A DNA stretch of 64,000 nt from Alphaproteobacteria bacterium PA4 (GTDB lineage Bacteria > Pseudomonadota > Alphaproteobacteria > Sphingomonadales > Sphingomonadaceae), in the NCBI GenBank assembly GCA_002256005.1, contig NKIQ01000001.1:1-64000 (forward strand), read 5' to 3'. Positions 20,602-47,370 of this stretch are shown piece after piece (position 1 is the first letter of the stretch; every line of letters starts with the position of its first letter). The notes under the pieces are model-generated. The model was not told the DNA's origin and did no database searches. It was given only the letters and a program-made list of their open reading frames with translations. The position numbers were made by a program, and so were the translations under genes.

Positions 20602-20688
20602 AGGTTGAAAAAACCCTTTAAATCAGCTACTTTAGCTCTCGCATTGACCGCCTGTGTTCGCCGACATTCGCCGGCAAGCGCAGATTTC

Positions 20689-20708: not shown

Positions 20709-20750
20709 TTTTTCCAAGCGGCTTTGCAGCACGGCTGCGAGGGTAAACCG

Positions 20751-24457: not shown

Positions 24458-24460
24458 CCA

Positions 24461-25133: not shown

Positions 25134-25170
25134 TCGCATTCACCCCCAATCCATTGCCGACGGTGACGCG

Positions 25171-27008: not shown

Positions 27009-27294
27009 AGGTTGCACGAACCTGCACGCACTCACCCCCGATATATAAATATAACCGGCGCGGCCTTTGGGGCCTTCGCGCCGATTCAAAATAAAGGCTG
27101 CGATGCCCTTCTGACATGCTGATGATGCGCGCTCGCCACGCGGTCTTCGGCCTGCATAACTGAATACGCTTACCGACTATAAAAGGAACGCCATCATGGG
27201 ACTGACCCATGTTTGGTGCTTCCGAGCGGTAGGGACCTACGCCGCTCCGATCGCATGGCGATGCCGAAAAGCCGTCCCCATAAGATACACTTTT

Positions 27295-28755: not shown

Positions 28756-28769
28756 TCCCTGAACCTCCT

Positions 28770-29759: not shown

Positions 29760-30125
29760 ATGGCAAATTGGAATCCCGAGCAGGTCCAACAACAACTCAA
29801 GGCGCATGAGCGTCGCAAGCACGATGATGCGGCGCGTTGCAGGACCGAGGTCCGTTTCGTAAAGGCAGATTACAGGCGATTCTACGACGAAGAAACTGCG
29901 GAGGAGACCGTGGCATTCGTTCTCGGTACGGCCTCCGCGCTCGAAAGTCGTGACCGGATGTTGGTTCGGCTGGAAGAGATGCGTCGGGACGTTACCGACG
30001 GCCGCTTAGACGCGACCGGGATCTATGACGCTGCGACATTTCGCGAGGCAGCGATTGACTTTATCGATCACTTGAAGGCCCGCTTCACTGACACGTCTCG
30101 ACCTGTCGACATCCGCTCGTTCTGA
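29760..30125 (+). CDS. small acidic/basic helical protein, unknown function
   Basis: 121 aa, strongly helical (VQQQLKAHERRKHDDAARCRTE; SALESRDRMLVRLEEMRRDV), no signal or membrane part. The ATG at 29760 has a weak upstream GGGAGAGAG, about 18 nt away, so the start is uncertain. It may bind nucleic acid or another island protein. I recognise no family, and it is the only rightward gene between the lipoprotein and the hydrolase. Confidence 0.55.
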   Translation: MANWNPEQVQQQLKAHERRKHDDAARCRTEVRFVKADYRRFYDEETAEETVAFVLGTASALESRDRMLVRLEEMRRDVTDGRLDATGIYDAATFREAAIDFIDHLKARFTDTSRPVDIRSF

Positions 30126-30178
30126 CGGGATCAGTCAAACTTGATAACCGGTGTCGGGGCTGCGCTTTGCCTTCCCCC

Positions 30179-31021
30179 CTATTTCGGTGGCTCTCCGATT
30201 TTAGGTGGCGGCTGAAGCGTGCGTGACTTCGGCCTGCCCGGATAGACCACGAAATCGTGTTCGCCAAAGCGATCGAGCGACAGAACAGGGTAGAAGGTGC
30301 GCTCATAAGCGAGCAATGGGCGGCCAAACAGCGATACCTTTTCGTCCGTTGTGGTGTCTTTCACCGCGTAAGGCAGATAATTGCGATGACGATAAACCTT
30401 CACGACCTGCGGTGAGCCACCGATCGATGAATTCCTATCCTGGGATTTAAGGAGACACGACAGCGCTTCCAACGGCTGAAAGTTGAGTTCGGTCTGTTGC
30501 TCGTGGATTAGTGTTCCGAGGATCTTTAAGTAGGCGGCGCGCTCGTCGCCGATGAAGCCGACCTTGAAGCCTTTGCCGCCGCTCCGCAGTCCGCCAAATT
30601 CTTCCCGCTCGTATTGGCCGGTCGTGCGACTGTAGCGAATGATGCGCTGGTAGGCGTCCCCGGTATCGAAATTGTATCCGCCGATCAGAAAGGAAGTTTT
30701 GGTAAACTGCGCCAGCTTCCGGTCATCGACCAGTGACGCCATCTGGTTGGCAATGGCGAGAAAGTCCTTCGTCACCTCCGAAATCGGTGCGGCTCCGTTC
30801 GCAAATCGCTGATAATTTCGGACCATGCACTGAAACTGAAATAATACCGGAAAGCCAAAGTCGGCGTCGCCGGCAAAAGAAATGCAAAAATTAGGTCCTT
30901 CGATCGGAAAGATTTTTTGTGCGCAATCCCAACGGTAACCGGCTGACAATCGGCTGTCGGATGCGAAAACGATTTCATCTACACCCTGAAATTTTCGTCG
31001 CCAGCATAATGAGATTGTCAC
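30179..31021 (-). CDS. proteasome-like Ntn-hydrolase protease
   Basis: 280 aa. The chain starts (GTG)-Thr-Ile-Ser-Leu; after Met removal Thr1 would be the N-terminal nucleophile. DEIVFASDSRLSAG supplies the Asp and CAQKIFPI the Lys of the proteasome/HslV Thr-Asp-Lys triad. ISFAGDADFGFPVLFQF corresponds to the conserved AGDA region. The start is GTG 31021, with a strong AGGAGG at a 9-nt spacing, which supports Thr as residue 2. The C-terminal third is longer than HslV. No HslU-like ATPase is nearby. A role in island defence is inferred from context. Confidence 0.7.
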   Translation of the reverse strand: MTISLCWRRKFQGVDEIVFASDSRLSAGYRWDCAQKIFPIEGPNFCISFAGDADFGFPVLFQFQCMVRNYQRFANGAAPISEVTKDFLAIANQMASLVDDRKLAQFTKTSFLIGGYNFDTGDAYQRIIRYSRTTGQYEREEFGGLRSGGKGFKVGFIGDERAAYLKILGTLIHEQQTELNFQPLEALSCLLKSQDRNSSIGGSPQVVKVYRHRNYLPYAVKDTTTDEKVSLFGRPLLAYERTFYPVLSLDRFGEHDFVVYPGRPKSRTLQPPPKIGEPPK

Positions 31022-31535
31022 CCAGATAGCCTCCTATTGCCAGACATACATTGCCATTCAATGATCGAACCAGCTGTCAAGCGGCTTGTCCAGACTACTC
31101 ATTGATCTGTCTTTTCGGAAAAAAGTCCCAGTTCCATCTTTCCCTATGGCTGGCTCCGGTCTGACCGGCGTGCAGAAGCCTTCGCGTAGAGCCTGATCGG
31201 CTCGTGGCCGCCCGCAGCTGGCTTGCTCGTTCCGGGGTGCCATGTCGGATGCTCGTAGAATGTCCATCCTGCCGAATGCTGACCTTCGGCGTCCGACAGG
31301 GAAAGAACGCTTCGTTCCATATCCCGTCATTCGCAGACCCATCAAGATATGGACCAAGGGTCAGATTTTGACCATTAGCATGGCGATTGGCTAGCTGTGC
31401 CAATTGCGTGATTGGCTGAATACCCAGCTTTGTCTGCGTCTATGTCGGCAATTCAGATCAAGAGGCAACACCGCTTGCCGGCACTGCCCGAGGCCCGCTA
31501 AGTCTGGCGCCGAGAACGGGGATCGCTAGTGAGTA
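31022..31535. other. intergenic region between Ntn hydrolase and restriction gene
   Basis: No gene is convincing. A leftward frame ending at 31058 codes a plausible tail (SSLDKPLDSWFDH) but has no good start or ribosome site. The right part is likely the promoter of the restriction-methylase gene. Composition is lower in G+C than the chromosome. Confidence 0.4.
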
Positions 31536-34500
31536 TTGAACGGCTGTGGTGCATTTGTGACTGATCCAAGCCTCTTCACGGCCGGGTCATTGTTCACCCA
31601 GGATTATCTGTCGGAAGGCATCACCGGCACTGCGCAGTATTGCGGCGTCGATACCGCCAGAACCCGCGAAGCGTTGAAAGCCATCTTCGCCGGCTTCCCG
31701 CATGGCAGCAAACCCAATGAGGCGACGACCGAAGGCGATTTGATCTGGCCGATCCTCGCGGCGCTCGGATGGTCGCAGTACCTCACCCAGCAGAACCTGT
31801 CCGCAACCGGCCGGGTGGACGTACCCGATGGCCTGCTGTTCATCGACGCGGCGGCAAAGGCCAAGGCGAACGAATACCCCGAAGAATGGAAGCGCTACCA
31901 GTTCGGCGCGGCGATCATCGAGAGCAAGCGCTGGGGCCGCGCGCTGGACCGTGCAGAAGGCAAGACCGAAAAGGACACGCCCTCGACGCAGTTGCTGCGC
32001 TACCTGCGCCGCATCGATGACCTGACCAACGGCGACCTGCGCTGGGGCATCCTCACCAATGGCACCAAGTGGCGCCTTTACTTCGCCGGCGCTCGCTCGA
32101 CGATCGATGATTATCTGGAACTCGACCTGTCGCGCATCATGCGGCTGGATGGCGACTTGCTCGATACCGGCATCACCGATGCCGAGCGCGACCATTGGCT
32201 GGCGGTGTTCGTCGCCATGTTCGATCGCACCGCGTTCGAGCGCGCCAGCGCCAAGGCCCCAAGCTTCCACGACACCGCCCGCCGCGATGCCGCCTTCTAT
32301 GAAGAGCGCGTCGCCAAGAGCCTGTCGGACCTTGTCTTCGCCCGCCTCTATCCCGCGCTGGGCAAGGCCGTTGCCAACGCCGCCCCAGCCGCAACCGAAC
32401 TCGACGAGGTGCGCCAGGCGACGCTGATCCTGCTCTATCGCCTGCTGTTCGTGCTCTATGCCGAAGACCGGGGCCTGTTGCCCGTCCGCGACAAGCGCTT
32501 CGATGACTATGCCCTGCGCCACGCCCGGCTGGATATTGGCCGCCGCATGGATGAAGGCGATGTGTTTTCGACGCGCGCAAAGAACATCTGGAACCGCGTC
32601 GCCGACTTGTCCGAAATGATCGACAAGGGCGACCCCTCGGTGGGCCTGCCGCCCTACAATGGCGGGCTGTTCGCCGCCGAGCGCACGCCGCTGCTCAAGG
32701 CCATCACCCTTGCCGACGATGTCATGGCCGAAGCCATCGATATTCTGTCCTTCGAACAACAGGACGGCCGGCGCCGCTACATCAACTATCGCGATCTGTC
32801 GGTGCAGCAGCTGGGGTCCATCTATGAACGCCTGCTCGAATTTGAACTGGTGCGCGATGCCGACGGTGCGGTCGATGTCCGCCCCAATCTCTTCGCCCGC
32901 AAGAACTCCGGCAGCTATTACACCCCCGACGATCTGGTGCTGCTCATCCTCGATGAAACCCTCGAACCGCTCATCACCGACGCGCTCGACGCCTTCCGGG
33001 CCGAACTGGCGCGGCTGAAGCCGGCGGACAGCGAGGATTATCGCATCACCCAGCTGCAAAAGGTCGATCCGGCGCGGGCGATCACCCGGCTGCGCGTCTG
33101 CGATCCAGCCATGGGGTCGGGCCACTTCCTCGTCAGCCTCGTTGACCGGCTGACCAACCACACCCTCGACGCCATCGCCGAAGCGCGCGCGCTGGCGCAT
33201 GATGTCGCCGGGCTCGACTATGAGTCCCCGGTTGCCGAGGAAATCCGCAAGGTCCGCGCCACCATCCGCCACAATGCCGAGGACCAGCGTTGGACGGTCA
33301 GCGACGCGCAACTCGACGACCCGCAACTCGTCAAGCGTATGGTGCTGAAACGCTGCGTCTATGGCGCCGACAAGAATCCCATGGCGGTCGAACTGGCCAA
33401 AGTATCGCTGTGGCTGCACACCTTCACGGTCGGCGCCCCGCTCAGCTTCATCGATCATCACCTCGCCGCCGGGGACAGTCTGTTCGGGCTGTGGGTGCGC
33501 GATGCCATCGACAAGGCCGGCAAGGGCGGCGAACTCCTCTATGTCGAGGAACTGCGCACCGCCGAGCGCCAGGCGGCGGTCATGCAGCGCATCGAGGCGC
33601 TGACCGATGCCGAGATTGCCGAGGCGCATCACAGTGCCGAAATGTGGCGCGACGTCGAATTTCAGGTCGGCCCGCTCGATAGTTTTGTCAGCTTCATGCA
33701 CGCGCTCGACTGGCTCGACGTGAAGGGGCCGGACAAGGCGCTGGTCACGCAATGGCTTGATGGCCAGTTTGGCGACCCACTGCCCATCGCACGGGGCAAG
33801 AAGGCGCCAGAAGCGTATCGCGGCAAGCCTGACGAGGCCGAGCGCTTCCACGCCATCTGGACGGTGGCACGCGCGCTGATCACTGAGGAACGCTTCCTCA
33901 ACTGGCAGATCACCTTTCCCGGCGTGTGGAGCAACTGGGCGAGCAGCGGGCGCGAAGGCGGCTTCGACGCCTTGGTCGGCAACCCGCCCTGGGACCGCAT
34001 CAAGCTGCAACAGATCGAATGGTTCGCCGCCCGCCGGCCTGACATCGCCAAGGCGCAGCGCGCGTCCGACCGGACGAAGATGATCAAGGCGCTGGAAAAG
34101 GCCGACGACCCGTTGTTTGCCGATTATGCCAAGGCCGACCGCCGCGCCGCCGATACGCTGCGCATCGCCCGCCGCTCGGGGCATTATCCCCTGCTCAGCC
34201 GTGGCGACATCAACCTTTACAGCCTGTTCGTCGAACGTGCGCATGCGCTGGTGCGACCGGGCGGCATGGTCGGCCTGCTCACCCCAAGCGGCATCGCATC
34301 CGACCTGTCGGCGAGCGAGTTTTTCCGCAAGTTGGCAACCGGCGGGCATTTGAAGGCCCTGTATGACTTCGAGAACCGCCGCACGCGCTATGCGCTGGAG
34401 CCATTCTTTCCCGATGTCGACAGCCGCTTTAAATTCGCAGCAATGATAGGCAGCCCGAGCCGCAAGTTCCCGGCGGCGCAGTGCGGGTTTTTCCTGCAAT

Positions 34501-35675
34501 CGGTTGAAGAACGGAAAAACCCCGATCAGGCGTTTCCGATCACGGCGGCGGGCTTTGCGCGGGTCAACCCGAATACCGGCACCGCGCCGATTTTCCGCAC
34601 GCGCCGCGACATGGCGCTGACAACTGCCATCTATGAGCGGTTGCCAGTGCTGGTGGACAGGTCAGGCCGCACGCCGGTCGCGACATGGCCGGTCAAGTAT
34701 GTCCGAATGTTCGATATGGCCAACGACAGCAGCCAGTTTCGCACGAAGACGGAATTGGAGACGCAAGAGGGTGCTTGGGACATCGGCGGCAACCGATGGC
34801 AATCGCAACAGGGGGAATGGGTGCCACTCTATGAGGGCAAAATCATTCAATCGTTCGATCACCGCGCGGCCGACATCACTATTAACGACGAAAACCTGTT
34901 TCGGCCCGGGCAGCAGACGGGGCTGACGGTCGACGAACACGCCAATCCCGATCGGGGCGCCACCCCCCGTTATTGGGTTTCGCTAGGCGCTGGGCAGTGG
35001 GAAGCGCCGGTTGATTGGGTTTTGGCGTTCAAGGATGTGACGGCAGCAACGAATGTGCGCACGTTCATCGCAAGCCTTATGCCGAAATTCGGCGCCGGCC
35101 ATACCTTGCCGGTTCTGTTTCCGGCGAATCGTGATGCCGATAGCGAATGGGGTTCGCTCCAACCGCTGATGGTTGCAAACCTCAATTCCATTATCTTGGA
35201 CTACCTGGCCCGGCAAAAGGTACACACCAATCACCTAGCCTGGTATTTGGTCGAACAACTCCCGGTAATCCCCCCGGCGGCCTACACTCGCGCCTTCGGC
35301 CCAAAAACCGCCGCCGAGATAGTCCGCGCCGCCGTCCTCGAACTCACTTACACCGCCCATGACATGGCGCCCTTCGCCCGCGACATGGGTCACACCGATG
35401 CCGCCGGCGACGTGCTGCCGCCCTTCATCTGGGATGAGGACCGCCGCCTGCACCTGCGCGCCCGGCTCGATGCGCTCTATTTCATCCTTTATGGCGTCTT
35501 TGACCCGGCCGACCCCGCCGCCAGCCGCGACGATATCCGCTACATCTATTCCACCTTTCCGATCGTGGAGCGGCAGGAGATCGTCGCCCATGGCCGCTAC
35601 CGCAGCCGCGACCTGTGCCTCGCCTACATCAACACCCTCATCGCCGGGCAACCCGACGCGGTGGTGGCGGGCTGA
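31536..35675 (+). CDS. type IIG restriction endonuclease / adenine methyltransferase
   Basis: A single 1379-aa polypeptide. An N-terminal PD-(D/E)xK nuclease appears as VPDGLLF (D about residue 98) and IIESKRW (E129, K131). The methyltransferase part has motif I VCDPAMGSGHFL (about 521-532) and motif IV NPPW (about 816-819), giving N6-adenine methylation. The C-terminal third is a target-recognition region. This is the Eco57I/BREX PglX-like organisation. The start is unclear: TTG at 31536 or GTG at 31557, neither with a clear ribosome site. It should protect the island and host from foreign DNA. Confidence 0.9.
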   Translation: MNGCGAFVTDPSLFTAGSLFTQDYLSEGITGTAQYCGVDTARTREALKAIFAGFPHGSKPNEATTEGDLIWPILAALGWSQYLTQQNLSATGRVDVPDGLLFIDAAAKAKANEYPEEWKRYQFGAAIIESKRWGRALDRAEGKTEKDTPSTQLLRYLRRIDDLTNGDLRWGILTNGTKWRLYFAGARSTIDDYLELDLSRIMRLDGDLLDTGITDAERDHWLAVFVAMFDRTAFERASAKAPSFHDTARRDAAFYEERVAKSLSDLVFARLYPALGKAVANAAPAATELDEVRQATLILLYRLLFVLYAEDRGLLPVRDKRFDDYALRHARLDIGRRMDEGDVFSTRAKNIWNRVADLSEMIDKGDPSVGLPPYNGGLFAAERTPLLKAITLADDVMAEAIDILSFEQQDGRRRYINYRDLSVQQLGSIYERLLEFELVRDADGAVDVRPNLFARKNSGSYYTPDDLVLLILDETLEPLITDALDAFRAELARLKPADSEDYRITQLQKVDPARAITRLRVCDPAMGSGHFLVSLVDRLTNHTLDAIAEARALAHDVAGLDYESPVAEEIRKVRATIRHNAEDQRWTVSDAQLDDPQLVKRMVLKRCVYGADKNPMAVELAKVSLWLHTFTVGAPLSFIDHHLAAGDSLFGLWVRDAIDKAGKGGELLYVEELRTAERQAAVMQRIEALTDAEIAEAHHSAEMWRDVEFQVGPLDSFVSFMHALDWLDVKGPDKALVTQWLDGQFGDPLPIARGKKAPEAYRGKPDEAERFHAIWTVARALITEERFLNWQITFPGVWSNWASSGREGGFDALVGNPPWDRIKLQQIEWFAARRPDIAKAQRASDRTKMIKALEKADDPLFADYAKADRRAADTLRIARRSGHYPLLSRGDINLYSLFVERAHALVRPGGMVGLLTPSGIASDLSASEFFRKLATGGHLKALYDFENRRTRYALEPFFPDVDSRFKFAAMIGSPSRKFPAAQCGFFLQSVEERKNPDQAFPITAAGFARVNPNTGTAPIFRTRRDMALTTAIYERLPVLVDRSGRTPVATWPVKYVRMFDMANDSSQFRTKTELETQEGAWDIGGNRWQSQQGEWVPLYEGKIIQSFDHRAADITINDENLFRPGQQTGLTVDEHANPDRGATPRYWVSLGAGQWEAPVDWVLAFKDVTAATNVRTFIASLMPKFGAGHTLPVLFPANRDADSEWGSLQPLMVANLNSIILDYLARQKVHTNHLAWYLVEQLPVIPPAAYTRAFGPKTAAEIVRAAVLELTYTAHDMAPFARDMGHTDAAGDVLPPFIWDEDRRLHLRARLDALYFILYGVFDPADPAASRDDIRYIYSTFPIVERQEIVAHGRYRSRDLCLAYINTLIAGQPDAVVAG

Positions 35676-35676
35676 C

Positions 35677-36129
35677 ATGGCGCGCAAAGCCAACGCCGTG
35701 GTGCGCGCCGACGGTATCCTTTGGCTGGACATAGACGCAACCGCGAAGCGTCTGGGCACCACCCGGATCAAAATTGTCGAACGCGCCCTCGCGGGGGAGT
35801 TCAGGTTTCTTGAAACCAAATATGGCACCCCAGGCTGGATTGCCGAACCTGACATTGCGCCCTTGCGCGCCGCCAAGCTGACCGCTGACCGCGATAAAGC
35901 CGCCGCGCTCGCCGTCAGCCGCGAGCGAGGCGCCAAACGCCGAGAGGCCGCCAAACAAGCTGCCGAGATAGAAAGGGCCGCTGCGGCGCCGCGCCCCAGA
36001 CCGGACACCGTGCCGGAGGTGGAGAAGGTGGTGCAAGAGGTCGTCGACGTTCGCAAACGTACCCGTGAAAACGGCTATCAATTGCGCATGCCACTACCAT
36101 TCCCGTACCCGGGCAAAGAATCAAAGTGA
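35677..36129 (+). CDS. small DNA-binding-like protein coupled to the restriction gene
   Basis: 150 aa, with its ATG one base after the restriction gene stop. The first ~60 residues (ILWLDIDATAKRLGTTRIKIVERALA, then a wing ending near WIAEPDIAPL) look like a helix-turn-helix of excisionase type. The rest is a charged coiled-coil (RERGAKRREAAKQAAEIERAAAA). It may be a control protein for the restriction system or a specificity helper. It is the last gene before attR. Confidence 0.6.
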   Translation: MARKANAVVRADGILWLDIDATAKRLGTTRIKIVERALAGEFRFLETKYGTPGWIAEPDIAPLRAAKLTADRDKAAALAVSRERGAKRREAAKQAAEIERAAAAPRPRPDTVPEVEKVVQEVVDVRKRTRENGYQLRMPLPFPYPGKESK

Positions 36130-36168
36130 CCGATTGTCAGCAAATTTTTTCAGGCCGCCAATCTTCAC

Positions 36169-36188
36169 TGGGGGCCTTTTTGGGGGCC
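36169..36188 (+). repeat. right arm-type repeat pair TGGGGGCC
   Basis: Two TGGGGGCC copies 12 bp apart, identical with flanks over 22 nt to 20689-20708 and in the same orientation, about 55 nt inside attR. They fit arm-binding sites of the island integrase. Confidence 0.7.
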
Positions 36189-36242
36189 TATTGAAACTGA
36201 CTGAAATAATTATTCAGATATTTGAGTTGTTTATAGGCATGC

Positions 36243-36290
36243 TTCGAGTCCTCTTCCGGCACCATCACCCCGGCCGCCAGCGGCCGCCGG
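36243..36290 (+). repeat. attR of the genomic island
   Basis: A 48-nt copy of the tRNA-Leu 3' end and following hairpin, matching 20553-20601 except for one lost G in the acceptor strand. No functional tRNA remains here. Beyond it the chromosome resumes with the end of the glycosyltransferase gene. Confidence 0.93.
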
Positions 36291-36311
36291 GATGTTTGCC
36301 TCTCACTTGCT

Positions 36312-37154
36312 TCAGTCGCGGCCGTTCACGCGGCGATCCGGCAACCATGCGGTCGTTGCCGATGGCCTGGCTTGGTGCTGCGCTGCCAGTCGGGCCGCGA
36401 CAAATGCCCAGGCGCCAATGGCCGTATCGGGTCGCAGCAATTGGCTGAAGAGCGCCCGATACTGGCGGGGGTGACGTGGAACGGACAGTCCCATGGCTGC
36501 CAGTTCGACCTCACCCCGACGCCAGCGCGCCCGCATCCGGATCCAGCCGGCGAAGTCTGCCGGGGCAAAGCTGGTGGCCAACGCGCCTGCAATGCGCAGC
36601 CGGCGCGCTGCCGGGATGGTCGCTGAAACAAAGATGTCGTCGCCTGTGACATCTGGCCAGCGACCCCAGCGTGCACGCCCGGCCGCCGATACGCCCAGCA
36701 CCATCGAATAGGCGAGGCTGCTGCCATGCGGCAGCGCCAGCCAGCAGGCCGCAATCCGGGCCGACAGCCAGGATGACCGTGACACATCATAGTCAAGCGC
36801 CGGCGCCACCAGATCGGCGTCGCCGGCGTGCAGGGCGTGTACCCGCGGCGCCAGACCCCCCGGCCCGATCCAGCAATCAGCATCCACATAAAAGCGCGGA
36901 AACAGGTCGCCCAGCGCCGTGTCGCCGGCCTGCAAGGCCGCGATCTTGCCGGGCAGGGGCAGGACGATCACTTCGGCATCCGGGCCCGCAAGGTGTCGGA
37001 TGATCGCCGCGCTGTCGTCGCTGCAGCCGTTGCAGACCCAGACGATGCGTGCATTCTCGCCTGCTGTTGCGGATAGCAGGCGCAGCACGGTCAACGGCAG
37101 CAGCGCCGCTTCGTTGCGAACCGGCACGACGATGCCATAGTCGACGCCGACCAT
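36312..37154 (-). CDS. family 2 glycosyltransferase
   Basis: 280 aa. The N-terminal GT-A fold reads YGIVVPVRNEAALLPLTVLRL (nucleotide-sugar site), then the DxD-like VDADCW at about residues 91-95. It is soluble, without membrane segments in the first 200 residues. It has no signal peptide. It is the last of a tight four-gene operon, its ATG one base after the preceding stop. The acceptor is unknown; in this cluster it may glycosylate the product of the NOS and radical-SAM enzymes. Confidence 0.8.
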   Translation of the reverse strand: MVGVDYGIVVPVRNEAALLPLTVLRLLSATAGENARIVWVCNGCSDDSAAIIRHLAGPDAEVIVLPLPGKIAALQAGDTALGDLFPRFYVDADCWIGPGGLAPRVHALHAGDADLVAPALDYDVSRSSWLSARIAACWLALPHGSSLAYSMVLGVSAAGRARWGRWPDVTGDDIFVSATIPAARRLRIAGALATSFAPADFAGWIRMRARWRRGEVELAAMGLSVPRHPRQYRALFSQLLRPDTAIGAWAFVAARLAAQHQARPSATTAWLPDRRVNGRD

Positions 37155-37155
37155 G

Positions 37156-37647
37156 CTATTCCTTGGGATTGGTCATCAGGAACCCGGTCGATGCCAGCAG
37201 CAACGCGACTGCCACAGCCAAGGGTGCGATGTTGCGGCCGACGCCGAGCCATAGCGCCAGCAGCAGCGATGCCGCCTGCAGGCCGATGAAGACGCCCTTG
37301 GTCGAGATCAGCCAGCGTGTGCCGAGCAGTCGCTGCGGCCGGTTGGCACGCAGCCAATGTTCCCAATCCTGGCGCGGTGCGGTTGCATCGTCGCGCAGCA
37401 AAAACTGGGTGATCTGCCGGATACGGATGCCATGATGGCACCAGATCAACGCCAGGCCCAAACCGGTTATGCCCTCGACCGCGGCGACCAGTGCCGCCTG
37501 TTCGGGTCGAATCATTGCCAGCCCGGCCAATGCAGTGAACGAAAGCAGCGACAGCATAAGTAGCAGATTCTGCAGAAGAATGCGTAGCGACAGTTCCCGA
37601 CGCAGCACCAGGGCATCGTCGCGGGCCGCAGCCAGATCGTTGATCAC
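37156..37647 (-). CDS. four-helix membrane protein of unknown function
   Basis: 163 aa with four predicted membrane helices (around LLQNLLLMLSLLSFTALAG, LVAAVEGITGLGLALIW, GVFIGLQAASLLLALWL, LAVAVALLLASTGFLM). The GTG start at 37647 overlaps the NOS stop as GTGA, so it is translationally coupled; a longer frame starting at 37734 would overlap NOS by 91 nt and lacks a ribosome site. It may be a transporter, quinone-linked component or anchor for the cluster's enzymes. No family recognised. Confidence 0.7.
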   Translation of the reverse strand: MINDLAAARDDALVLRRELSLRILLQNLLLMLSLLSFTALAGLAMIRPEQAALVAAVEGITGLGLALIWCHHGIRIRQITQFLLRDDATAPRQDWEHWLRANRPQRLLGTRWLISTKGVFIGLQAASLLLALWLGVGRNIAPLAVAVALLLASTGFLMTNPKE

Positions 37648-38921
37648 CACGGCATTCGTTTCCAGATCTTCCAGCGCCGCCGCACGCGGTCGATCCACAT
37701 CGAGGCGCGCCAGCGGTAATGATCGCCATACCATGGCATAAGCCGCAGGCCGTCACTCCCCCGGTCGCGATAGAAATTCGGCACTGGCTGGAAATTCTGC
37801 ATCGGCAGGTGAAATACCTCGCAGGCGGCGCCGGCCTGGGGTGGCACGATCCAGCGCCATTCGGCGGGTACGCGCCGGCCCTGGGCCTGTTCCCGGGCGT
37901 GAAAGGCCATGAACTGGTCGGATGCGGTGTGATGATCGACCATGGTCACCCCCGCGACCTTGTAGGAATGCAGCACGGCGCGATTGAGTTCGGTCAGCGC
38001 TACGTCGCGCCATAGCGGCGAGGCTTTGCTATCAACCGCGAGATCCAGTGCGCGTGCCACGGCCGGCAGGAGGTCATAGCGCTTGGCATCGGTCAGGTCG
38101 CGCGAGGCGATCTCGGTGCCCATGTAAAAACCATTGAAAGGCGCGCAGGGGTAGTCGACACCGCCAATGGTCAGGATCGTGTTGCTGACCAGCGGCACCG
38201 CATACCATTTCAGGCCCAGCCACGACAGGCCGGGATGGTCGGGATGGTGGATGTCGATTTCGCGTACCGCCCCTGGTGGCAGTTGGCACAGATGGCGGCG
38301 ATCGGCGGCATCGCGAAGGAAATAGGGCAGCAGGTCGAAGGCGCTCGGCGTGGCCGGCGGCTGCCAGCCCATGGCGATGGCGATGCGTGTCGCCTCGACA
38401 TTCTGGCGGTCGCCGAGCAGCGAGCCGTCGGGCTGGGGGTAGCAGGCATATTGGGCGATCTGCGGGCTTTCGATCCAGGCGGGCAGGGTGTCGCGCCCGG
38501 CCGGTGCAAAGATCGAGATCATCGATCGGATACGGCCATCGCCATAGGCATCGTCGAGATGGCGACGGATCTGGGTCTGGATGGCTTCCGGGTCGGTGAT
38601 CGCCCGGCAATCGACGACCTCCAGACTTTCCCACAGCAAGCGGCCGATACAGCGACCACTGTTGCGCCAGGCAAGGCGCGCGCCATAGGCGAGTTCCTCC
38701 GGCGTGTGGACATAGGTGCCGGTGCGCGACAATTGCCGACGCACGTCGGACCAGCGCGCCTTGCGCTGGCGCGGTTCGGTGTTGCTCGCCGCGTGAAAGG
38801 CGGCCAGGAAGGTGCGCGCTTCCTCGCGCCGCTCCGCTGTCGACAGACGTCGCAATCGGCGGGCCAGCGGGTTGCCCGCTGCAGCCGAGCGATAGCGGGT
38901 GGACGACAGCAGTCGCCGCAT
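37644..38921 (-). CDS. nitric oxide synthase oxygenase domain protein
   Basis: 425 aa. The heme-thiolate motif AWRNSGRCIGRLLWESL (Cys about residue 91) and the arginine-site region FNGFYMGTEIASRDLTDAKRYD, followed by VDHHTASDQF and WRWIVPP, match bacterial NOS oxygenases almost throughout; the bacterial enzyme turns L-arginine to citrulline and NO. It has about 50 extra N-terminal residues and no reductase domain, as usual for bacteria. The ATG overlaps the radical SAM stop (TGATG). NOS is rare in alphaproteobacteria. Its operon mates suggest the NO or a nitrosylated/nitrated product goes into synthesis rather than signalling. Confidence 0.93.
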   Translation of the reverse strand: MRRLLSSTRYRSAAAGNPLARRLRRLSTAERREEARTFLAAFHAASNTEPRQRKARWSDVRRQLSRTGTYVHTPEELAYGARLAWRNSGRCIGRLLWESLEVVDCRAITDPEAIQTQIRRHLDDAYGDGRIRSMISIFAPAGRDTLPAWIESPQIAQYACYPQPDGSLLGDRQNVEATRIAIAMGWQPPATPSAFDLLPYFLRDAADRRHLCQLPPGAVREIDIHHPDHPGLSWLGLKWYAVPLVSNTILTIGGVDYPCAPFNGFYMGTEIASRDLTDAKRYDLLPAVARALDLAVDSKASPLWRDVALTELNRAVLHSYKVAGVTMVDHHTASDQFMAFHAREQAQGRRVPAEWRWIVPPQAGAACEVFHLPMQNFQPVPNFYRDRGSDGLRLMPWYGDHYRWRASMWIDRVRRRWKIWKRMPW

Positions 38922-40489
38922 CACATCAAGCCATCGAACTGGCGGGCCGTATCGCGCAACTGGCGACTGTTGATGCGATAGACGATGTCGAGCGCCTGCG
39001 CCTTCGCCCGGCGATATTCGCGGCCGCGATCCTCGGCGCGGCGGTAATGGACGCGGGCGCGCCGATCATCGCGGCGGGTGACATTCAGCACCGCCTCGGC
39101 GGCGGCCTTGTCGGTGATCGCCTGCCAGATCGGCGTGCCGGTGTGGATGGTGAATTCGTTGAAGCGGACGCGATCGAGATAGGGGGCGTGTTCGTCGAGA
39201 AAACGCACCGTCGCGTCCATGTCGGCGGCAGTTTCGCCGGGAAAGCCCTTGAACATCGTGCAGCGTACCGACAGGCCGGCCGCATGCGCATCCTTGATGA
39301 AGGTGGAGTTTCGCGGCACCGAAGTGCCCTTGTGCATCAGGTCGAGCAGCCGCTGGCTGCCGCTTTCGAGGCCGAACGATACCCGCCGCATGCCACCGTC
39401 GACGGCAGCTTCCAGGTCGGCGCGGGACAGGCCGTTGTCTGGCCGCTGATCGACATGGACCGTGCCGATCCATTCTGCCCCCTGCACATAGCGGCCGATG
39501 CCCCTGGCGATGCCGCGGATCATGTCGGGCCAGCTGTTCAGTTTCAGGTCGAGGAACAGGAAATTCGACGTCTGGTGGCGGCGCGCCTGTTCCTGCATCT
39601 CCAGCAATACATTTTCGACGCTGCGCGTGCGGAAGGTGCGGCCCGAGACGGAGATCACGTCCGAACAGAAACGGCATTTGTCCCACTGGCAGCCGCGCCC
39701 GGTCATCATCGGCACGATGCGCCCGGCATAGCGATCCCAGGGGAAATCGGTGAAGTCGGGGACCGGCGTGTCGTCGAGATTGCGCAACGGCGCCGCCGCG
39801 ACCGACTTGCGACCATCCGGCATCACCACACCCGGATAGGCCAGCGGATTGCCGTCGCCGCACAGCGATTCCATCAGATCGGGCAGCTCGCGATCGACTT
39901 CGGCGCCGACGATGGCGGCGACGCCCGGGATGCGCCGCCAGGTGTCGGCCACTTCGGCAATGTTGAACATCGGGCCGCCAATAATCACCGGGATACCGCG
40001 GGTCTTGGCCAGGGCGGCAATGGCCTCGGCACTGTTGAAATGCTGCAGATAGGCGGAAATCAGCACTGCATCGGGACGCAGGTCCAGCGCCTTGGCGATT
40101 TCGCGCAGCACGATCGGATGGGTGCGTTCGACGCGCACGGTTTCGGCGCGGCGCAACAGGTCGCGCACGCCGAGGAACGGCCGCCAGTCCGACAGATGGA
40201 TGCGGCGGCGGACATGATCGACAAGCGTCTCGCGACGTTCCCGCTCCGTCGCCGGCACGTCATGGGCAAGCGGGCAAAGCACGTCGACGCGGTGGCCGCG
40301 ATTGCGCAGCGACGCGACCAGCAGCCCTACGGCAAGCGTCGGGAAGCTGGCGAAATTATTGAGATCGACGACCAGGAAGCGACGGCCACGCGGCGCTGCT
40401 TCGGGTTGCGCCCGATCCGATACGATAACGCGTGCCGGCTGCAGCGCGCGCGCCGCGCGCAATGGGCGATCCGATCGCTCTGTCGCCAT
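38921..40489 (-). CDS. B12-type radical SAM protein
   Basis: 522 aa. An N-terminal cobalamin-binding-like Rossmann domain (NNFASFPTLAVGLLVASLRN, then AVLISAYLQHFNSAEAI and VIIGGPMFNIAEV) lacks the classic DxHxxG. The radical SAM core has cysteines in GCQWDKCRFC (CX4CX2C), and later VSFGLESGSQRLLDLM and FKGFPGETAADMDATVRF fit the BchE-like/B12-rSAM class. Such enzymes do methylation or ring-closing radical chemistry. It starts at ATG 40489 (GGGGG upstream) and leads the operon with NOS. The substrate is unknown. Confidence 0.85.
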   Translation of the reverse strand: MATERSDRPLRAARALQPARVIVSDRAQPEAAPRGRRFLVVDLNNFASFPTLAVGLLVASLRNRGHRVDVLCPLAHDVPATERERRETLVDHVRRRIHLSDWRPFLGVRDLLRRAETVRVERTHPIVLREIAKALDLRPDAVLISAYLQHFNSAEAIAALAKTRGIPVIIGGPMFNIAEVADTWRRIPGVAAIVGAEVDRELPDLMESLCGDGNPLAYPGVVMPDGRKSVAAAPLRNLDDTPVPDFTDFPWDRYAGRIVPMMTGRGCQWDKCRFCSDVISVSGRTFRTRSVENVLLEMQEQARRHQTSNFLFLDLKLNSWPDMIRGIARGIGRYVQGAEWIGTVHVDQRPDNGLSRADLEAAVDGGMRRVSFGLESGSQRLLDLMHKGTSVPRNSTFIKDAHAAGLSVRCTMFKGFPGETAADMDATVRFLDEHAPYLDRVRFNEFTIHTGTPIWQAITDKAAAEAVLNVTRRDDRRARVHYRRAEDRGREYRRAKAQALDIVYRINSRQLRDTARQFDGLM

Positions 40490-40660
40490 GGTCAAGACGC
40501 CCCCTAAACCGTCCGAAACGCGGACTCGACAAGCCATTGTTAATGTTTTGTCGAGCGTCGGGCCATACGCAATCTAACGAAGTGCTGCGCACGGCCTTGA
40601 TTGATTACCCCGAATCCGTGTGAACGCCTATCGGTTCATCCGGTTCCATGCGGCGCCAGA

Positions 40661-40674
40661 TTGATCGTGATCAA
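40661..40674. promoter_or_regulatory. FNR/Dnr/FixK-type binding site
   Basis: TTGATCGTGATCAA is a perfect match to the FNR-family consensus TTGAT-N4-ATCAA. It lies 60 nt upstream of the AcsF-like gene and 172 nt upstream of the radical SAM-NOS operon, in their shared divergent promoter region. FNR/FixK proteins respond to oxygen, and Dnr/NnrR proteins to NO. Confidence 0.75.
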
Positions 40675-40733
40675 GGCCGAACCGGCAGGCGCCGGCTAGC
40701 CATCCGGGGTGCAGACCAGGCGCGGGAGGGCGG

Positions 40734-41807
40734 ATGATGACGACCATGACACTGACGGCAGCGCCAGGGGTGGACCGCTGGAAACAACAGATCAGCAATG
40801 AAACCATTCTATCGCCGCGCTTTTACACCACCGATTTCGCTGCGCTCGACCGCATCGACGTGTCGCCGGTGCGGTCGGAATGGGAAAAACTGCTGGCGAT
40901 CATGGAGGCCGATCCCAATCGCCTCCATTTTCGCAAGCGCGAGGCCTTTACCGGCATCGTCGAAGCACTGCCCGGCGACGTCCGCGAAGAATTCACCGCC
41001 TTCCTGATCTCGTCGATGACGTCGGAATTTTCGGGCTGCGTGCTTTATGCCGAAATCGCCCGGCGCACGCAGAACCCGGATATCCGCCGACTGATGCGGC
41101 TGCTCGCGCGTGACGAAAGCCGCCATGCCGGGTTGATCAACGACAGTCTGAAGGATGCCGGCATCGTCATAAGCCTGTCTTATCTGACCCGCGCCAAGCG
41201 CTATCATTACTTCAGCCCGAAGTTCATCCTTTTTGGTACCTATCTCTCGGAAAAGATTGGCTATGCCCGCTACATCACCATCTGCCGGCATCTGGCACAA
41301 CATCCGGAGCATGCCTTTCACCCGCTGTTCGCGCGCTTCGAGGCATGGTGCAACGACGAATATCGCCACGGCGAGGCGATCGCGCTGATCCTGCGCGCCG
41401 ATCCGGCCCTGACCCGCGGGCTGAACCGGCTGTGGATCCGATTTTTCCTGATCTCGGTCTATGCCACCATGTATTGCCGGGATCACATGCGTCCGGCCCT
41501 GCATCGTGCCATGGGCCTCGACATCACCGACTATGATTATCAGGTGTTCGATACCTGCACGGCCATCAGCCGCCAGGTGTTTCCGATGACGCTGGACACC
41601 GCCGCGCCGCGCTTCCGTGCCGGCATGGAAGCGATGCGGCGCGCATCGCTGCGGCTGGAGGAAGCGCGCCAGGCCAGCGGGCTGCGCCGTGCCATCGGCC
41701 GGGTTACTGCCAGCATCGGGGTCGGTCTCGCCTTTGCCCGGCTGTTCCTGCTGCCGACCCGGCCGAACACACCACCGGATACGGTGTTGCTGCCGGCGGT
41801 CTGGTAG
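40734..41807 (+). CDS. AcsF-like di-iron oxidative cyclase
   Basis: 357 aa. The start ETILSPRFYTTDFAALDRID and the di-iron residues in SEFSGCVLYAE (about 98-107), RDESRHAG (E128, H131) and NDEYRHGE (E209, H212) are those of aerobic Mg-protoporphyrin IX monomethyl ester cyclase (AcsF), which forms the bacteriochlorophyll E ring with O2. GGGAGG precedes the ATG at 40734; ATG 40737 is also possible. No bch, puf or crt genes are near, and it lies opposite the NOS operon under an FNR-type site. It may act on a non-chlorophyll substrate. A paralogue of a photosynthetic AcsF elsewhere cannot be excluded. Confidence 0.85.
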   Translation: MMTTMTLTAAPGVDRWKQQISNETILSPRFYTTDFAALDRIDVSPVRSEWEKLLAIMEADPNRLHFRKREAFTGIVEALPGDVREEFTAFLISSMTSEFSGCVLYAEIARRTQNPDIRRLMRLLARDESRHAGLINDSLKDAGIVISLSYLTRAKRYHYFSPKFILFGTYLSEKIGYARYITICRHLAQHPEHAFHPLFARFEAWCNDEYRHGEAIALILRADPALTRGLNRLWIRFFLISVYATMYCRDHMRPALHRAMGLDITDYDYQVFDTCTAISRQVFPMTLDTAAPRFRAGMEAMRRASLRLEEARQASGLRRAIGRVTASIGVGLAFARLFLLPTRPNTPPDTVLLPAVW

Positions 41808-41808
41808 G

Positions 41809-42780
41809 TCAGGTGGCGATCAACGCCATGTGTTTTGCCCAGGCGAGGAACAGGTCAGGCCAGGCCGCAGCCGGTTTGCCCTGCACGAGGCGCAGGCCAA
41901 AACCATGGCCGCCTTCGGCAAACAGATGCGTTTCGACCGGGATGCCGCGTGCCCGCAACGCCGCGCGCAGGCCGAGCGTGTTGGCCACCGGGACCGTCGG
42001 ATCGTCTTCGGCATGAAGCAGGAAGTGCGGCGGCGCGTCGGCCGGAATGTTGCGATCGGGGCTGTGTGCCGCCTCCAACCTGGCATCGTCGCCGATCAAC
42101 AGCCGGCGCGACCCGGGATGGGCCAGGGGCGGCGTCATCGACACGACCGGATAAAGGGGCGCCGCCAGCATGGGACGCGCCGACAGTCGATCGGCCCCAT
42201 CCCCGGCTTCTGCGCATGGCAACGCAAAGCGCGCCGCCAGATCGGCGCAGACATGGCCGCCGGCGGAAAAGCCCATGGCGGCCACCCGCGCCGGGTCGAT
42301 ACCGAAGTCGCCGGCGCGATGCCGGATCAACCGCATGGCACGCTGGGCATCGGTCAGCGCCACGTTCGGCGCGTCGGCCCAGCCTTCGCCGGGCAGGCGA
42401 TAGAACAGCACAAAGGCGGTGATGCCGCGTGCCGCCAGCCAGCGGCCCATTTCATAACCTTCCTTGTCGACCACCACCCAGCGATAGCCGCCGCCCGGCA
42501 TGATCAGCACGGCCGCGCCATTGGGCCGCGCCGGTCGGAACACCACCATGCGCGGCCGCGCGATGCCGAGCACGGCCCGATCGTTGAAGCCGGCATCGTT
42601 GCTGCGTTCCAGCACCTGTTCGGCCGGCAGCGGACCCTGACGGCCAGGCGCGCCCGCCGGCCACAGGTCGATGCTTTCCACCGGATCGGGCAGTGCCAGG
42701 GCGCGCGGGCCCAGTGGCGGCGGGGTCTGTGCGGCAGCTGGCGCGGCAAGGGCGGCCAGCAGCAGGTCACGGCGGTTCAT
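41809..42780 (-). CDS. exported alpha/beta hydrolase (carbohydrate esterase-like)
   Basis: 323 aa. An N-terminal export signal (MNRRDLLLAALAAPAAAQ) and the nucleophile elbow GFSAGGH (about residue 169) with VLIMPGGGYRWVVVDKEGYE ahead mark a BD-FAE/acetylxylan-esterase-like hydrolase. Late motifs LLHAEDDPTVPV and EGGHGFG give Asp and His. It probably removes acetyl or methyl groups from pectin/xylan oligomers. Its ATG overlaps the GH43 stop (ATGA), so it is the last gene of the TonB receptor operon. Confidence 0.8.
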   Translation of the reverse strand: MNRRDLLLAALAAPAAAQTPPPLGPRALALPDPVESIDLWPAGAPGRQGPLPAEQVLERSNDAGFNDRAVLGIARPRMVVFRPARPNGAAVLIMPGGGYRWVVVDKEGYEMGRWLAARGITAFVLFYRLPGEGWADAPNVALTDAQRAMRLIRHRAGDFGIDPARVAAMGFSAGGHVCADLAARFALPCAEAGDGADRLSARPMLAAPLYPVVSMTPPLAHPGSRRLLIGDDARLEAAHSPDRNIPADAPPHFLLHAEDDPTVPVANTLGLRAALRARGIPVETHLFAEGGHGFGLRLVQGKPAAAWPDLFLAWAKHMALIAT

Positions 42781-44381
42781 GGCAGCGCCCGATAGGTGAA
42801 ATTGGCAAAGCGCGCCGCCCCCGTCCCCGCGGCGTAGAGCGCCGGCCTGAGGCTGAGGAAATCATAGGCGACATTGTGGTGATAGCCTGACACCTCCATC
42901 TGCACGTCGAACTTGCGCCAGTTGGCGCCCTGATCGTTGCTGGTGTGGATGGTCAGGATGTTGCGGTCGTTGGTGAGGCGCAGGCGTAGTGGCTGGCCCG
43001 GTGGTTCGCCACGGGTGCGTTGCAGGCCATAGCGGTGCATGACGAGGCCGCGGTCGCCGATGCCCAGCCCGGCATAGAGGCGGCGGTTGTAGAACAGCAG
43101 CAGCCCGGCCTCGGCGCCGGGATCGACCTCGACATCCGCCTCGAACCGATAGGCCTGGTCGCCGGCGATCAACGTCATCGGCGAACAGTCCGACGGTGAC
43201 CGCCCCTTGGCCGCGAGCGTCAGCACGCCGTTGCGGCGGCTGGCCCGGCGCGCCTCGCCGGGGCCGGGGTCATAGAAGGACCAGAGCAGGCCCATGCGGT
43301 CGCTGCGAAAATCATCGCTCAACGGCTGGCCGTGCGACTGGTCGGGCAGGCGGCGGGGCAGTTTCAGGCTGTGCGACAGATCACCGCCCTGCGGCACCGG
43401 CCAGCCTTCGGCGTCCCAGTCGAACGGTTGCAGCAGCGTCTGCCGGCCCAGCGTCCAATAGCCATTTTCATAGCCGTGCAGGATCATGTACCATTGCCCG
43501 CCGGGCCCTTCGAACGGTGTGGCATGGCCGCGCGACCACCATTTTTCCTGTGCCGAACGGGTGCGCAGGACGGGGTTGTGCGGGCAATGCTGCCACGGGC
43601 CGTCGAGGCTGCGGGACCGCGCCATGATGACCATATGGCTGGTCGGCGGTCCGGCGGTGCCGCCCACCGCCAGCGTCATGTAGAAATAGGGGCCGCGGCG
43701 GGTGATTTTGGGGCCTTCCGGGGCGAAGCTTTCGACGACCCAGTCCACCGGATAGCGCCAGGGGTCATAGACATGCTCGACCGGTCCGGCCGTGGCCAGA
43801 CCGTCGGCGGTCAGCGGTACGCGGTCACCGCCTGACAGGAACAGCCAGCGCCGGCCATCGGCCCCGACGGCATGGCCGGGATCGATGTGCAGCGGCAGCT
43901 TCAGGTCGATGGGGTCGGACCATGGCCCCGCAATGTTATCGGCATGGATGACGTAGATAGATTTATAGTCGGGAAAGCGCGCCGGAATGTAGCAATAGAA
44001 GCGGCCAGCGTGCGCGACGAGTTCCGGTGCCCAGACCGATCCGATCGGTTTCGTCAGGGCGGCGGTGACCGGCTGCCAGTTCACCAGATCGCGGCTGTGC
44101 CAGATGACGATGCCGGGATAGGCGTCGAAGCTGGAAAAGGTCAGATAGTAATCATCGCCGACCCTGAGGATGCTGGGATCGGGATGGTCGCCGGCAAAGA
44201 TCGGGTTCCGAAACTGGCCATTGCCGAGATCGGCGCGGCGCTGGCCTTCGAAGCCCTGGCCCCAGCGCAACCGGGCGTGCGGGTCGAGCGATGATGTCGC
44301 CGCCGATCCTTGTGCCAGCGCGGGCGCGGCACCGCTGCCCAGCAGGGCCAGGCCGGAGAGCGCGGCGCGACGATCGATCAT
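42777..44381 (-). CDS. glycoside hydrolase family 43 protein
   Basis: 534 aa with a signal (IDRRAALSGLALLGSGAAPALAQ). The five-bladed propeller starts NPIFAGDHPDPSILRVGDDYYLTF (catalytic base Asp in DPS), then SVWAPELV and, late, GHATPFEGPGGQWY. A C-terminal lectin-like module (DUF1349 type) is likely from about 350 on. Such enzymes are beta-xylosidases or alpha-arabinofuranosidases; here probably side-chain arabinose/xylose removal from pectin. The start at 44381 follows the TonB receptor stop by 31 nt. Same operon. Confidence 0.88.
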   Translation of the reverse strand: MIDRRAALSGLALLGSGAAPALAQGSAATSSLDPHARLRWGQGFEGQRRADLGNGQFRNPIFAGDHPDPSILRVGDDYYLTFSSFDAYPGIVIWHSRDLVNWQPVTAALTKPIGSVWAPELVAHAGRFYCYIPARFPDYKSIYVIHADNIAGPWSDPIDLKLPLHIDPGHAVGADGRRWLFLSGGDRVPLTADGLATAGPVEHVYDPWRYPVDWVVESFAPEGPKITRRGPYFYMTLAVGGTAGPPTSHMVIMARSRSLDGPWQHCPHNPVLRTRSAQEKWWSRGHATPFEGPGGQWYMILHGYENGYWTLGRQTLLQPFDWDAEGWPVPQGGDLSHSLKLPRRLPDQSHGQPLSDDFRSDRMGLLWSFYDPGPGEARRASRRNGVLTLAAKGRSPSDCSPMTLIAGDQAYRFEADVEVDPGAEAGLLLFYNRRLYAGLGIGDRGLVMHRYGLQRTRGEPPGQPLRLRLTNDRNILTIHTSNDQGANWRKFDVQMEVSGYHHNVAYDFLSLRPALYAAGTGAARFANFTYRALP

Positions 44382-44412
44382 GGCGTCGCGCCCTCCGGAT
44401 CTTCGGTCGGTG

Positions 44413-47310: not shown

Positions 47311-47355
47311 GTTGAAACTCTCCCCTGAATGCCCCGCGCCGCGCGCCTTGCCGAT

Positions 47356-47370
47356 TGACACCGGTTACCA
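47356..47370. promoter_or_regulatory. shared uronate operator, TonB receptor promoter
   Basis: TGACACCGGTTACCA, a near-palindrome (ACCGGT core), 46 nt upstream of the TonB receptor start. The same sequence or its complement recurs at 47507-47521, 54508-54522, 55669-55683 and 58624-58638. It suits a LacI-family dimer. Confidence 0.75.

Follow-up and report, generated by a model that had tools for sequence, protein, structure and literature searches.

What kind of pathway could join a nitric oxide synthase (NOS), rare among alphaproteobacteria, to a radical S-adenosylmethionine (SAM) enzyme, and which of the genes around the pair belong to it? The question is raised by five genes at positions 36,312 to 41,807 of a 64,000-nucleotide stretch of DNA (the window: positions 1 to 64,000 of contig NKIQ01000001.1, assembly GCA_002256005.1) from Alphaproteobacteria bacterium PA4. 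A sequence-only reading had taken the five genes for a possible new biosynthetic system making a nitrosylated, nitrated or N-oxidised glycosylated compound, and its observation is confirmed in that all five are open at the coordinates listed below. We refer to the radical SAM gene as RSAM, the small membrane protein gene as TM and the AcsF copy in the window as AcsF2. Our main result is that RSAM and NOS are associated far beyond chance, because they adjoin in 37 distinct loci; NOS and a B12-type RSAM form a conserved module, often together with GT2 and TM, and AcsF2 is probably a neighbour or bystander of it. The combination points to a pathway, and a molecule, yet to be described.

38921..40537, minus strand: RSAM with a B12-binding-type N domain; predicted class-B-like fold, CX4CX2C cluster motif, C-terminal FDGLM
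40370..40537, minus strand: N-terminal extension of RSAM, Arg-rich and mostly disordered (predicted local distance difference test, pLDDT, below 50 for residues 1-45)
37644..38924, minus strand: NOS, a stand-alone oxygenase domain (PF02898)
37647..37757, minus strand: C-terminal tail of NOS, cationic and Trp-rich, present in most RSAM-linked NOS
37156..37734, minus strand: TM, small membrane protein; model helices 21-75, 77-114, 140-163, 169-188
36312..37154, minus strand: GT2-family glycosyltransferase (PF00535)
40661..40674, strand not assigned: FNR-like box TTGATCGTGATCAA between RSAM and AcsF2, a perfect match to what we take to be the FNR/FnrL consensus
40734..41807, plus strand: AcsF2, second paralog of AcsF (Mg-protoporphyrin monomethyl ester cyclase), divergent from RSAM

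The encoded proteins are 538 (RSAM), 426 (NOS), 192 (TM), 280 (GT2) and 357 (AcsF2) amino acids long, with a second possible ATG start for RSAM at 40489. The families named by the sequence-only reading are borne out by Pfam and NCBIfam matches, TM excepted, which matched no family in either: NOS matches PF02898 (5.8e-127, 424 bits against a cut-off of 22.7) over residues 32-387, near its whole length; RSAM matches PF04055 (2.3e-13, 51.1 bits, cut-off 29.5) and the B12-binding PF02310 (3.8e-9, 36.8 bits, cut-off 32.1), its Rossmann domain preceding the radical SAM barrel; GT2 matches PF00535 (3.5e-10); and AcsF2 matches TIGR02029 (430 bits, cut-off 192.5). The four minus-strand genes had been described as overlapping, which holds for RSAM and NOS (4 bp) and for NOS and TM (91 bp), whereas TM and GT2 lie 1 bp apart; RSAM, NOS, TM and GT2 look like one operon.

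The pairing of RSAM and NOS across bacteria

Genome contigs were scanned with five RSAMs, which gave 61 loci, comprising 48 orthologs (at least 35% identity over most of the available length) and 13 remote matches (30% identity or less) that were left out; the set was completed by the window together with four loci from the family and two from plasmids, and the duplicate loci L034, L035, L080 and L083 were removed (L-numbers label loci, G-numbers genomes and C-numbers host contigs, the host being G000). Among the 53 RSAM loci, 37 distinct ones hold RSAM and NOS together, L082 being almost identical to L046, and 16 are without a neighbouring NOS. With start codons chosen mechanically, the gap between the two genes is at most 27 bp in 37/37 loci and the genes overlap in 23, by exactly 4 bp in 19; in L022 the genes adjoin by domain coordinates, and the first NOS of L031 follows a partial RSAM match. 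The concern that the neighbours of NOS might not be kept together in relatives was checked and is answered by the RSAM common to the 37 loci. As claimed from the sequence, NOS is rare, occurring in 6 of 396 genomes of the order sample and 1 of 385 of the class sample (the host itself); in the phylum sample it occurs in 3 of 398 (the host, G062 and G934). Five of the six NOS of the order sample, the host's included, are directly preceded by an RSAM on the same strand. The sixth (L010:5126-8269) is a 1047-aa protein of another kind, in which, as judged by eye, cyclic-nucleotide-binding-like and ferredoxin/reductase-like parts precede the NOS domain.

The 37 loci span contigs labelled Alpha-, Beta- and Gammaproteobacteria and Planctomycetota, the carriers being labelled as Rhodobacterales, Methylobacterium/Methylorubrum, Caenispirillum, sphingomonads, Burkholderiales and Limnohabitans metagenome-assembled genomes (MAGs), gammaproteobacterial MAGs and Planctomycetota MAGs, with the culturable Methylorubrum suomiense, Novosphingobium subterraneum and Glacieibacterium frigidum among the organisms whose genomes contain the pair; L018 (labelled Phycisphaerae) and L026 (Kiritimatiellae) sit within a Rhodobacterales subclade and may be misbinned. 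The pair is also found on plasmids, namely a 21-kb plasmid of Jannaschia sp. W003, where a nitroreductase, a glycosyltransferase and a Crp/Fnr regulator are annotated nearby, and a conjugative plasmid of Novosphingobium sp. ES2-1, where RSAM, NOS and a glycosyltransferase are consecutive. Matches on viral contigs numbered ten, at 21-32% identity and with no close ortholog among them, and phage records gave two distant staphylococcal NOS matches; carriage by viruses was rejected.

NOS seems to need RSAM more than the other way round, because all eight NOS of the linked clade that were returned by NOS searches (G000, G062, G105, G233, G362, G934, Jannaschia and Novosphingobium, several of them also returned by RSAM searches) adjoin an RSAM, while 16 of the 53 RSAM loci have no NOS beside them. 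None of 11 NOS outside the clade has an RSAM neighbour in the stretches examined, which for three reached only 1.5 kb to each side. Whole-genome searches found no NOS in 14 of the 16 genomes with NOS-less RSAM loci; the other two, Actinoplanes (two genes) and an Amaricoccus MAG (one), have NOS that fall outside the linked clade and are unlinked to RSAM within the stretches examined. The Amaricoccus MAG carries tandem RSAM copies with no NOS beside them (L041:7923-11302), its NOS of the other kind lying elsewhere in the genome. A Limnohabitans-labelled contig (L031:5317-10808) has two RSAM-NOS pairs in tandem: in the first, RSAM matches partly and NOS contains a run of unknown residues, and the second groups with planctomycete-labelled tree rows, so that the contig may be misbinned.

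Accessory genes were sought within 3 kb of the pair, GT2 with a profile of five GT2 proteins at a threshold of 30 bits. The RSAM-NOS loci have GT2 in 21 of 37 cases, the membrane family of TM in 12 and a sulfotransferase-like gene (a label read from the sequence, without a family search) in 4, compared with 1, 0 and 1 among the 16 NOS-less loci; these counts are lower bounds, as some contigs end nearby and the annotated glycosyltransferase of Jannaschia falls below the threshold. The gene order of the window, RSAM-NOS-TM-GT2, recurs in L017, L018, L024 and L026, and GT2 from the window shares 44-58% identity (over partial length in some) with the GT2 of eight further Rhodobacterales-type RSAM-NOS loci and 32% with that of L031. 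In the genomes examined, the membrane family is confined to RSAM-NOS loci: of 36 RSAM genomes searched, 10 have it (the genomes of L018 and L026 are outside these 36 and carry the membrane gene at the locus), each best match sitting at the RSAM-NOS locus and one genome having a second, partial match beside the first. A search of 196 order-sample genomes, which scored at most 16 first-look candidates per genome for the membrane family and 7 for RSAM, found the former in two genomes, both with RSAM-NOS, and RSAM in three, with NOS adjacent in all three. The model of the membrane protein has a pLDDT of 79.4, and no solved structure matched its fold below an E-value of 0.98.

The NOS clade and the predicted fold of RSAM

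In a tree of 48 NOS, the 37 RSAM-linked rows lie on one side of a branch with support 100/100 and a stem of 0.63; these rows represent 36 loci, as L031 gives two and L016 was left out, its NOS being split in two frames. The 11 other NOS, Deinococcus among them, are L010, three from two RSAM-bearing genomes and seven from plasmid records; of 14 plasmid records with NOS, nine were examined. Two of the plasmid settings may be recorded in their own right. On a Rhizobium rhizoryzae plasmid (L118:3782-4990), NOS lies beside an SDR gene and a gene annotated as CoF synthetase, possibly a further biosynthetic setting for NOS; on a Micromonospora plasmid (L124:2315-4737), NOS is directly followed in the same direction by a globin-domain gene, an arrangement reminiscent of the fused globin-NOS of cyanobacteria.

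Residues were compared over 36 linked rows, with the window included and the first NOS of L031 excluded, in what we take to be eNOS numbering. Cys184, Gln247, Tyr331, Tyr357, Glu361, Arg365, Trp445 and Trp447 are kept in 36/36, among which are presumably the heme Cys, the guanidinium-binding Glu and the pterin-site Trp pair; the window NOS belongs with the PF02898 oxygenases both by profile and by its heme Cys, Glu and Trp pair. Three other positions, which we assume to lie at or near the amino-acid end of the substrate and the entrance, differ between the groups: Trp356 is changed in 35 of the 36 linked NOS (F 19, H 10, Y 5, V 1) and W in one, as against W in 9 of 11 others; at position 250, 29 linked NOS have Gln and 7 the Arg that 10 of the 11 others have; and two residues ahead of Gln247, 33 have Ser where all 11 others have Asn. 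To judge from the alignment, the linked NOS keep the catalytic residues while their putative substrate-channel residues are changed. Of the 36 linked NOS measured, 32 carry a C-terminal tail that is 30 or more residues long and has a net charge of +5 or higher, which none of the six others that could be measured has.

The AlphaFold2 model of RSAM, built with 48 sequences, has a pLDDT of 87.2 and a predicted template modelling score of 0.85, and Foldseek matches it to TsrM (2.3e-17), MgmA (4.3e-17), OxsB (1.3e-15) and CysS (1.9e-15), with 14-18% sequence identity to these four; AprD4 was also matched. RSAM is probably cobalamin-dependent; its likeness to cobalamin-dependent methylases is one of predicted fold, and we do not class it as a methylase. 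The cluster cysteines Cys283, Cys288 and Cys291 form a CX4CX2C motif that is invariant in 49 sequences, and RSAM thus lacks the canonical CX3CX2C, which we do not take as exclusion, since other cluster spacings occur among radical SAM proteins. RSAM scores below the cut-off of every NCBIfam family matched, the best being TIGR03975 (106 against 282 bits), and its identification with BchE was rejected (TIGR02026, 43.6 bits against a cut-off of 481).

The RSAM tree has 54 rows, the second copy from L041 having been dropped; its NOS-less rows are mostly outgroups, from Thiotrichaceae, Nitrosomonas with a planctomycete MAG, Actinoplanes and a flavobacterium, the placement of L059 and L056 being unsure on account of long branches; the NOS-less L020, L039, L041 and L070 lie inside the NOS-linked clade, as losses would give. 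With mechanically chosen starts, the distance from the farthest start to the DLNN motif has a median of 45 residues in the 41 rows of the clade that holds the linked RSAMs, 5 of which are loci without NOS, against 14.5 in 12 outgroup RSAMs without linked NOS. An N-terminal Arg motif, a pattern picked after inspection, occurs in 11 of the 41, compared with a maximum of 6 in 2000 shuffles. For a precursor of a ribosomally synthesised and post-translationally modified peptide, for which no systematic search was made, there is little room in the 196-bp gap ahead of the window RSAM.

Host, origin and the neighbouring AcsF2

The host is a sphingomonad with a genome of 3.0 Mb, the window sitting on contig C5, and it carries the gene set of an anoxygenic phototroph: bchH, bchL, bchM, puhA, puhC, acsF, puhE and hemA on contig C9, and two PufL/M-type genes on C12. 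The earlier remark that photosynthesis genes are missing here thus applies to the window only. Six congeners of the host in the order sample were without NOS. The RSAM of Rhodobacteraceae bacterium QY30 is the sister of the window RSAM (support 99/93, 76% identity), and the window NOS falls in a seven-row Rhodobacterales-type set (100/99), two rows of which are MAG contigs labelled otherwise, apart from most other sphingomonad copies. Because both genes group with Rhodobacterales-type sequences and away from most sphingomonad ones, the window copy of the pair was probably acquired by transfer from a Rhodobacterales-type source, among whose relatives the window's gene order is found again. At the QY30 locus (L016:9539-10841), NOS is split over two frames, either through decay or through a sequencing error.

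The operon adjoins a tRNA-Leu integration hot spot, where an integrative element with a tyrosine integrase extends from the tRNA (20489-20575) to a 33-bp repeat at 36258-36290 that ends 21 bp from the GT2 stop. Downstream of the same tRNA in six congeners, none of the operon genes was found in the stretches examined, two of them very short. The element itself (20489-36290) is bounded by 33-bp direct repeats at 20569 and 36258 and encodes a dGTPase-like HD protein, an AAA ATPase, an ADP-ribosylglycohydrolase with a dual-specificity-phosphatase-type domain and a type IIG/DrmMI-like restriction-methylase. On the other side, adjoining AcsF2, positions 41809-47361 hold an alpha/beta hydrolase akin to pectin/xylan acetylesterases, a GH43 enzyme and a large TonB-receptor-like open reading frame, perhaps a locus for the utilisation of plant polysaccharides.

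AcsF2 is 60% identical to the canonical AcsF of the host and keeps DESRH and NDEYRH, which we take to be AcsF motifs. A tree with photosynthetic AcsFs, the comparison suggested by the sequence-only reading, nests it inside the sphingomonad photosynthetic group (94/86), sister to L085 (99/95), which lies inside a photosynthesis cluster; as both are long branches, the sister relation is unsure. The host is the only one of 54 AcsF-positive genomes (among 298 in the family) with two copies. AcsF2 is most likely a spare chlorophyll cyclase, perhaps a low-oxygen isoform like the cyanobacterial ChlAII: as with ChlAI and ChlAII, two copies about 60% identical occur in one phototroph, although in contrast to the cyanobacterial pair a second copy of this type is found in just 1 of 54 AcsF-positive relatives. 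ChlAI and ChlAII are reported to be 57% identical, with ChlAII mattering mainly under micro-oxic conditions (PMC4500134).

The FNR-like box is the sole match in the window at no more than one mismatch, where shuffles average 1.04 such matches, and the pattern, presumed to be the FNR/FnrL consensus, has one perfect match in 746 kb of other loci; no such box turned up around the canonical acsF. The 53 stretches upstream of RSAM that were taken from 52 other loci contain no perfect box and one with a single mismatch, a frequency equal to background. That the operon shares FNR control was rejected, as the perfect box is not conserved upstream of other RSAMs. The box probably belongs to AcsF2, and a single perfect match between two divergent genes related to oxygen hints at micro-oxic control of AcsF2.

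A proposed pathway and its rivals

With somewhat less than even confidence, we lean towards a pathway in which RSAM first modifies a guanidine-bearing substrate, which NOS then N-oxidises. We infer its coupling, step order, guanidine substrate, methylation, cofactors and product from the genes, their linkage and phylogeny, the residue changes and the predicted RSAM fold described above. RSAM, probably with cobalamin, would functionalise an unactivated carbon of a substrate that probably bears a guanidine, most likely by C-methylation, our default guess because methylation is called the commonest reaction of cobalamin-dependent radical SAM enzymes (PMC11659888). The NOS oxygenase, which would be translationally coupled to RSAM in most loci, would then N-hydroxylate or oxidatively cleave the guanidine using heme, pterin and O2, with electrons from a housekeeping reductase. 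Here and in related operons, GT2 and the membrane protein may glycosylate the product, handle it at the membrane or both, and at some loci a sulfotransferase-like or another glycosyltransferase gene may stand in their place. This order of steps is suggested by the fact that NOS of the clade was not met without RSAM, while RSAM occurs without NOS, by the changed channel residues and by the mostly overlapping genes.

Several points weigh against this proposal. An altered residue need not imply an altered substrate; the checked catalytic and arginine-contacting residues are all kept, which may mean that free L-arginine is the substrate. Cobalamin use and methylation are uncertain because AprD4, which shares the RSAM fold, is not known to need cobalamin; the best NCBIfam match lies far under its cut-off and the cluster spacing departs from the usual CX3CX2C. 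Several of the NOS-less RSAM genomes are incomplete MAGs, and contigs L058 and L061 end inside RSAM. Tailoring cannot be universal, since no recognised GT2 occurs in 16 of the 37 linked loci and no membrane protein in 25, although some contigs end nearby. A more specific version, in which the linked NOS would have ceased to make NO from L-arginine and would act instead as a guanidine N-oxygenase on a substrate first C-methylated by RSAM to give an N-oxidised metabolite, we regard as rather doubtful; were it true, the metabolite would be an undescribed one, often glycosylated or sulfated, membrane-associated and made in phototrophic and other proteobacteria, and the membrane protein would represent a new, dedicated family.

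A serious rival, somewhat unlikely in our view, has NOS make nitric oxide (NO) from free L-arginine, the NO then nitrosating or nitrating a scaffold made by RSAM, perhaps through capture of a substrate radical; NO made by NOS is put to such use in the thaxtomin, rufomycin, lajollamycin and 8-azaguanine pathways. The catalytic residues kept in every linked NOS suit it. Against it, no P450 appears among the annotated neighbours (most neighbours of the 37 loci being unannotated), and the O2 sensitivity of radical SAM chemistry sits badly with an O2-requiring NOS, an objection that bears on every model, including the one we prefer. A dedicated NOS has precedents in biosynthetic clusters (PMC10831120, PMC7109123, PMC7674941), one of which, for 8-azaguanine, also has a HemN-like radical SAM gene (PMC7674941), whereas the active residues of PtnF are described as highly conserved (PMC7109123) and the channel residues here are altered. 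That NOS instead supplies NO for signalling or protection from stress, in biofilm formation or respiration, with the RSAM product loosely connected, appears improbable: such roles are reported for other bacterial NOS including that of the roseobacter Silicibacter TrichCH4B (PMC9500659), but tight coupling to one RSAM type and a one-clade distribution would not be expected of a general NO source. A five-gene system with AcsF as a pathway enzyme is very improbable. The start of AcsF2 lies 196 bp from that of RSAM, divergently and with the perfect FNR-like box between them, so that co-regulation is conceivable, and there are phototrophs among the RSAM genomes; yet AcsF2 nests among photosynthetic AcsFs, the host photosynthesis cluster has its own acsF, no AcsF was found at the other RSAM-NOS loci examined, and the box is not repeated upstream of other RSAMs. 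Given its place in the tree, the presence of a second, canonical acsF and its absence from the other loci examined, AcsF was rejected as a member of the pathway, and of the five genes proposed to travel together in relatives it is RSAM and NOS that are conserved, often with GT2 and TM. Nor is phototrophy required as a common factor, since PufL/M scored over the cut-off in 13 out of 49 distinct RSAM genomes searched and failed to do so in the other 36, many of them MAGs (the 49 are 53 handles minus three same-genome pairs and G325, which has no such RSAM; the genomes of L058, L061, L081 and L082 were left out). The earlier interpretation is therefore upheld for the NOS, RSAM, GT2 and TM module and given up for AcsF.

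Few jobs are known for bacterial NOS, and its pairing with RSAM across classes opens a clear genetic route to a new function of NOS, whose substrate may be other than arginine, and possibly to a new natural product or lipid. It combines O2-sensitive and O2-using enzymes in a single operon, includes a membrane protein family not represented in Pfam, and is small enough to be tested: four genes here and a 21-kb plasmid in Jannaschia. Open-access titles and abstract openings, as distinct from subscription papers and supplements, gave no description of the RSAM-NOS pair and nothing on nitric oxide synthase together with cobalamin-dependent radical SAM enzymes, and the main text of a study of NOS-guided mining contains neither the words radical SAM nor proteobacteria (PMC10831120).

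The nearest precedent is the 8-azaguanine cluster, with NOS and a HemN-like radical SAM enzyme (PMC7674941). That enzyme has CX3CX2C, whereas RSAM here has a B12-type domain and CX4CX2C. Like the clusters for thaxtomin (TxtD), rufomycin (RufN), lajollamycin and 8-azaguanine (PtnF/8-AzgA), the present loci place a stand-alone, dedicated NOS in a biosynthetic setting; those clusters are actinobacterial and have P450, polyketide synthase/non-ribosomal peptide synthetase or GTP-cyclohydrolase-like genes. In nitration clusters of the TxtD/TxtE type, NOS is paired with a nitrating P450; no P450 was found among eight window proteins (35662-44489), nor at the two plasmid loci among the products that have names, some other products there being hypothetical proteins. 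Unlike in those clusters, NOS here has changed channel residues and a cationic tail and forms its own clade against 11 others, the tree rows not including TxtD, RufN and PtnF. RSAM resembles the class B enzymes TsrM, MgmA, OxsB and CysS in predicted fold and differs from them in its signatures DLNNFA.FPTL and FDGLM and in CX4CX2C. Finally, like the NOS of Bacillus, Geobacillus and Deinococcus, the linked NOS consist of the oxygenase domain only, with no fused reductase and with conserved heme, arginine and pterin residues; in contrast to them, they usually have Trp356 and Arg250 changed, carry a basic tail and, in the members examined, have RSAM as their neighbour.

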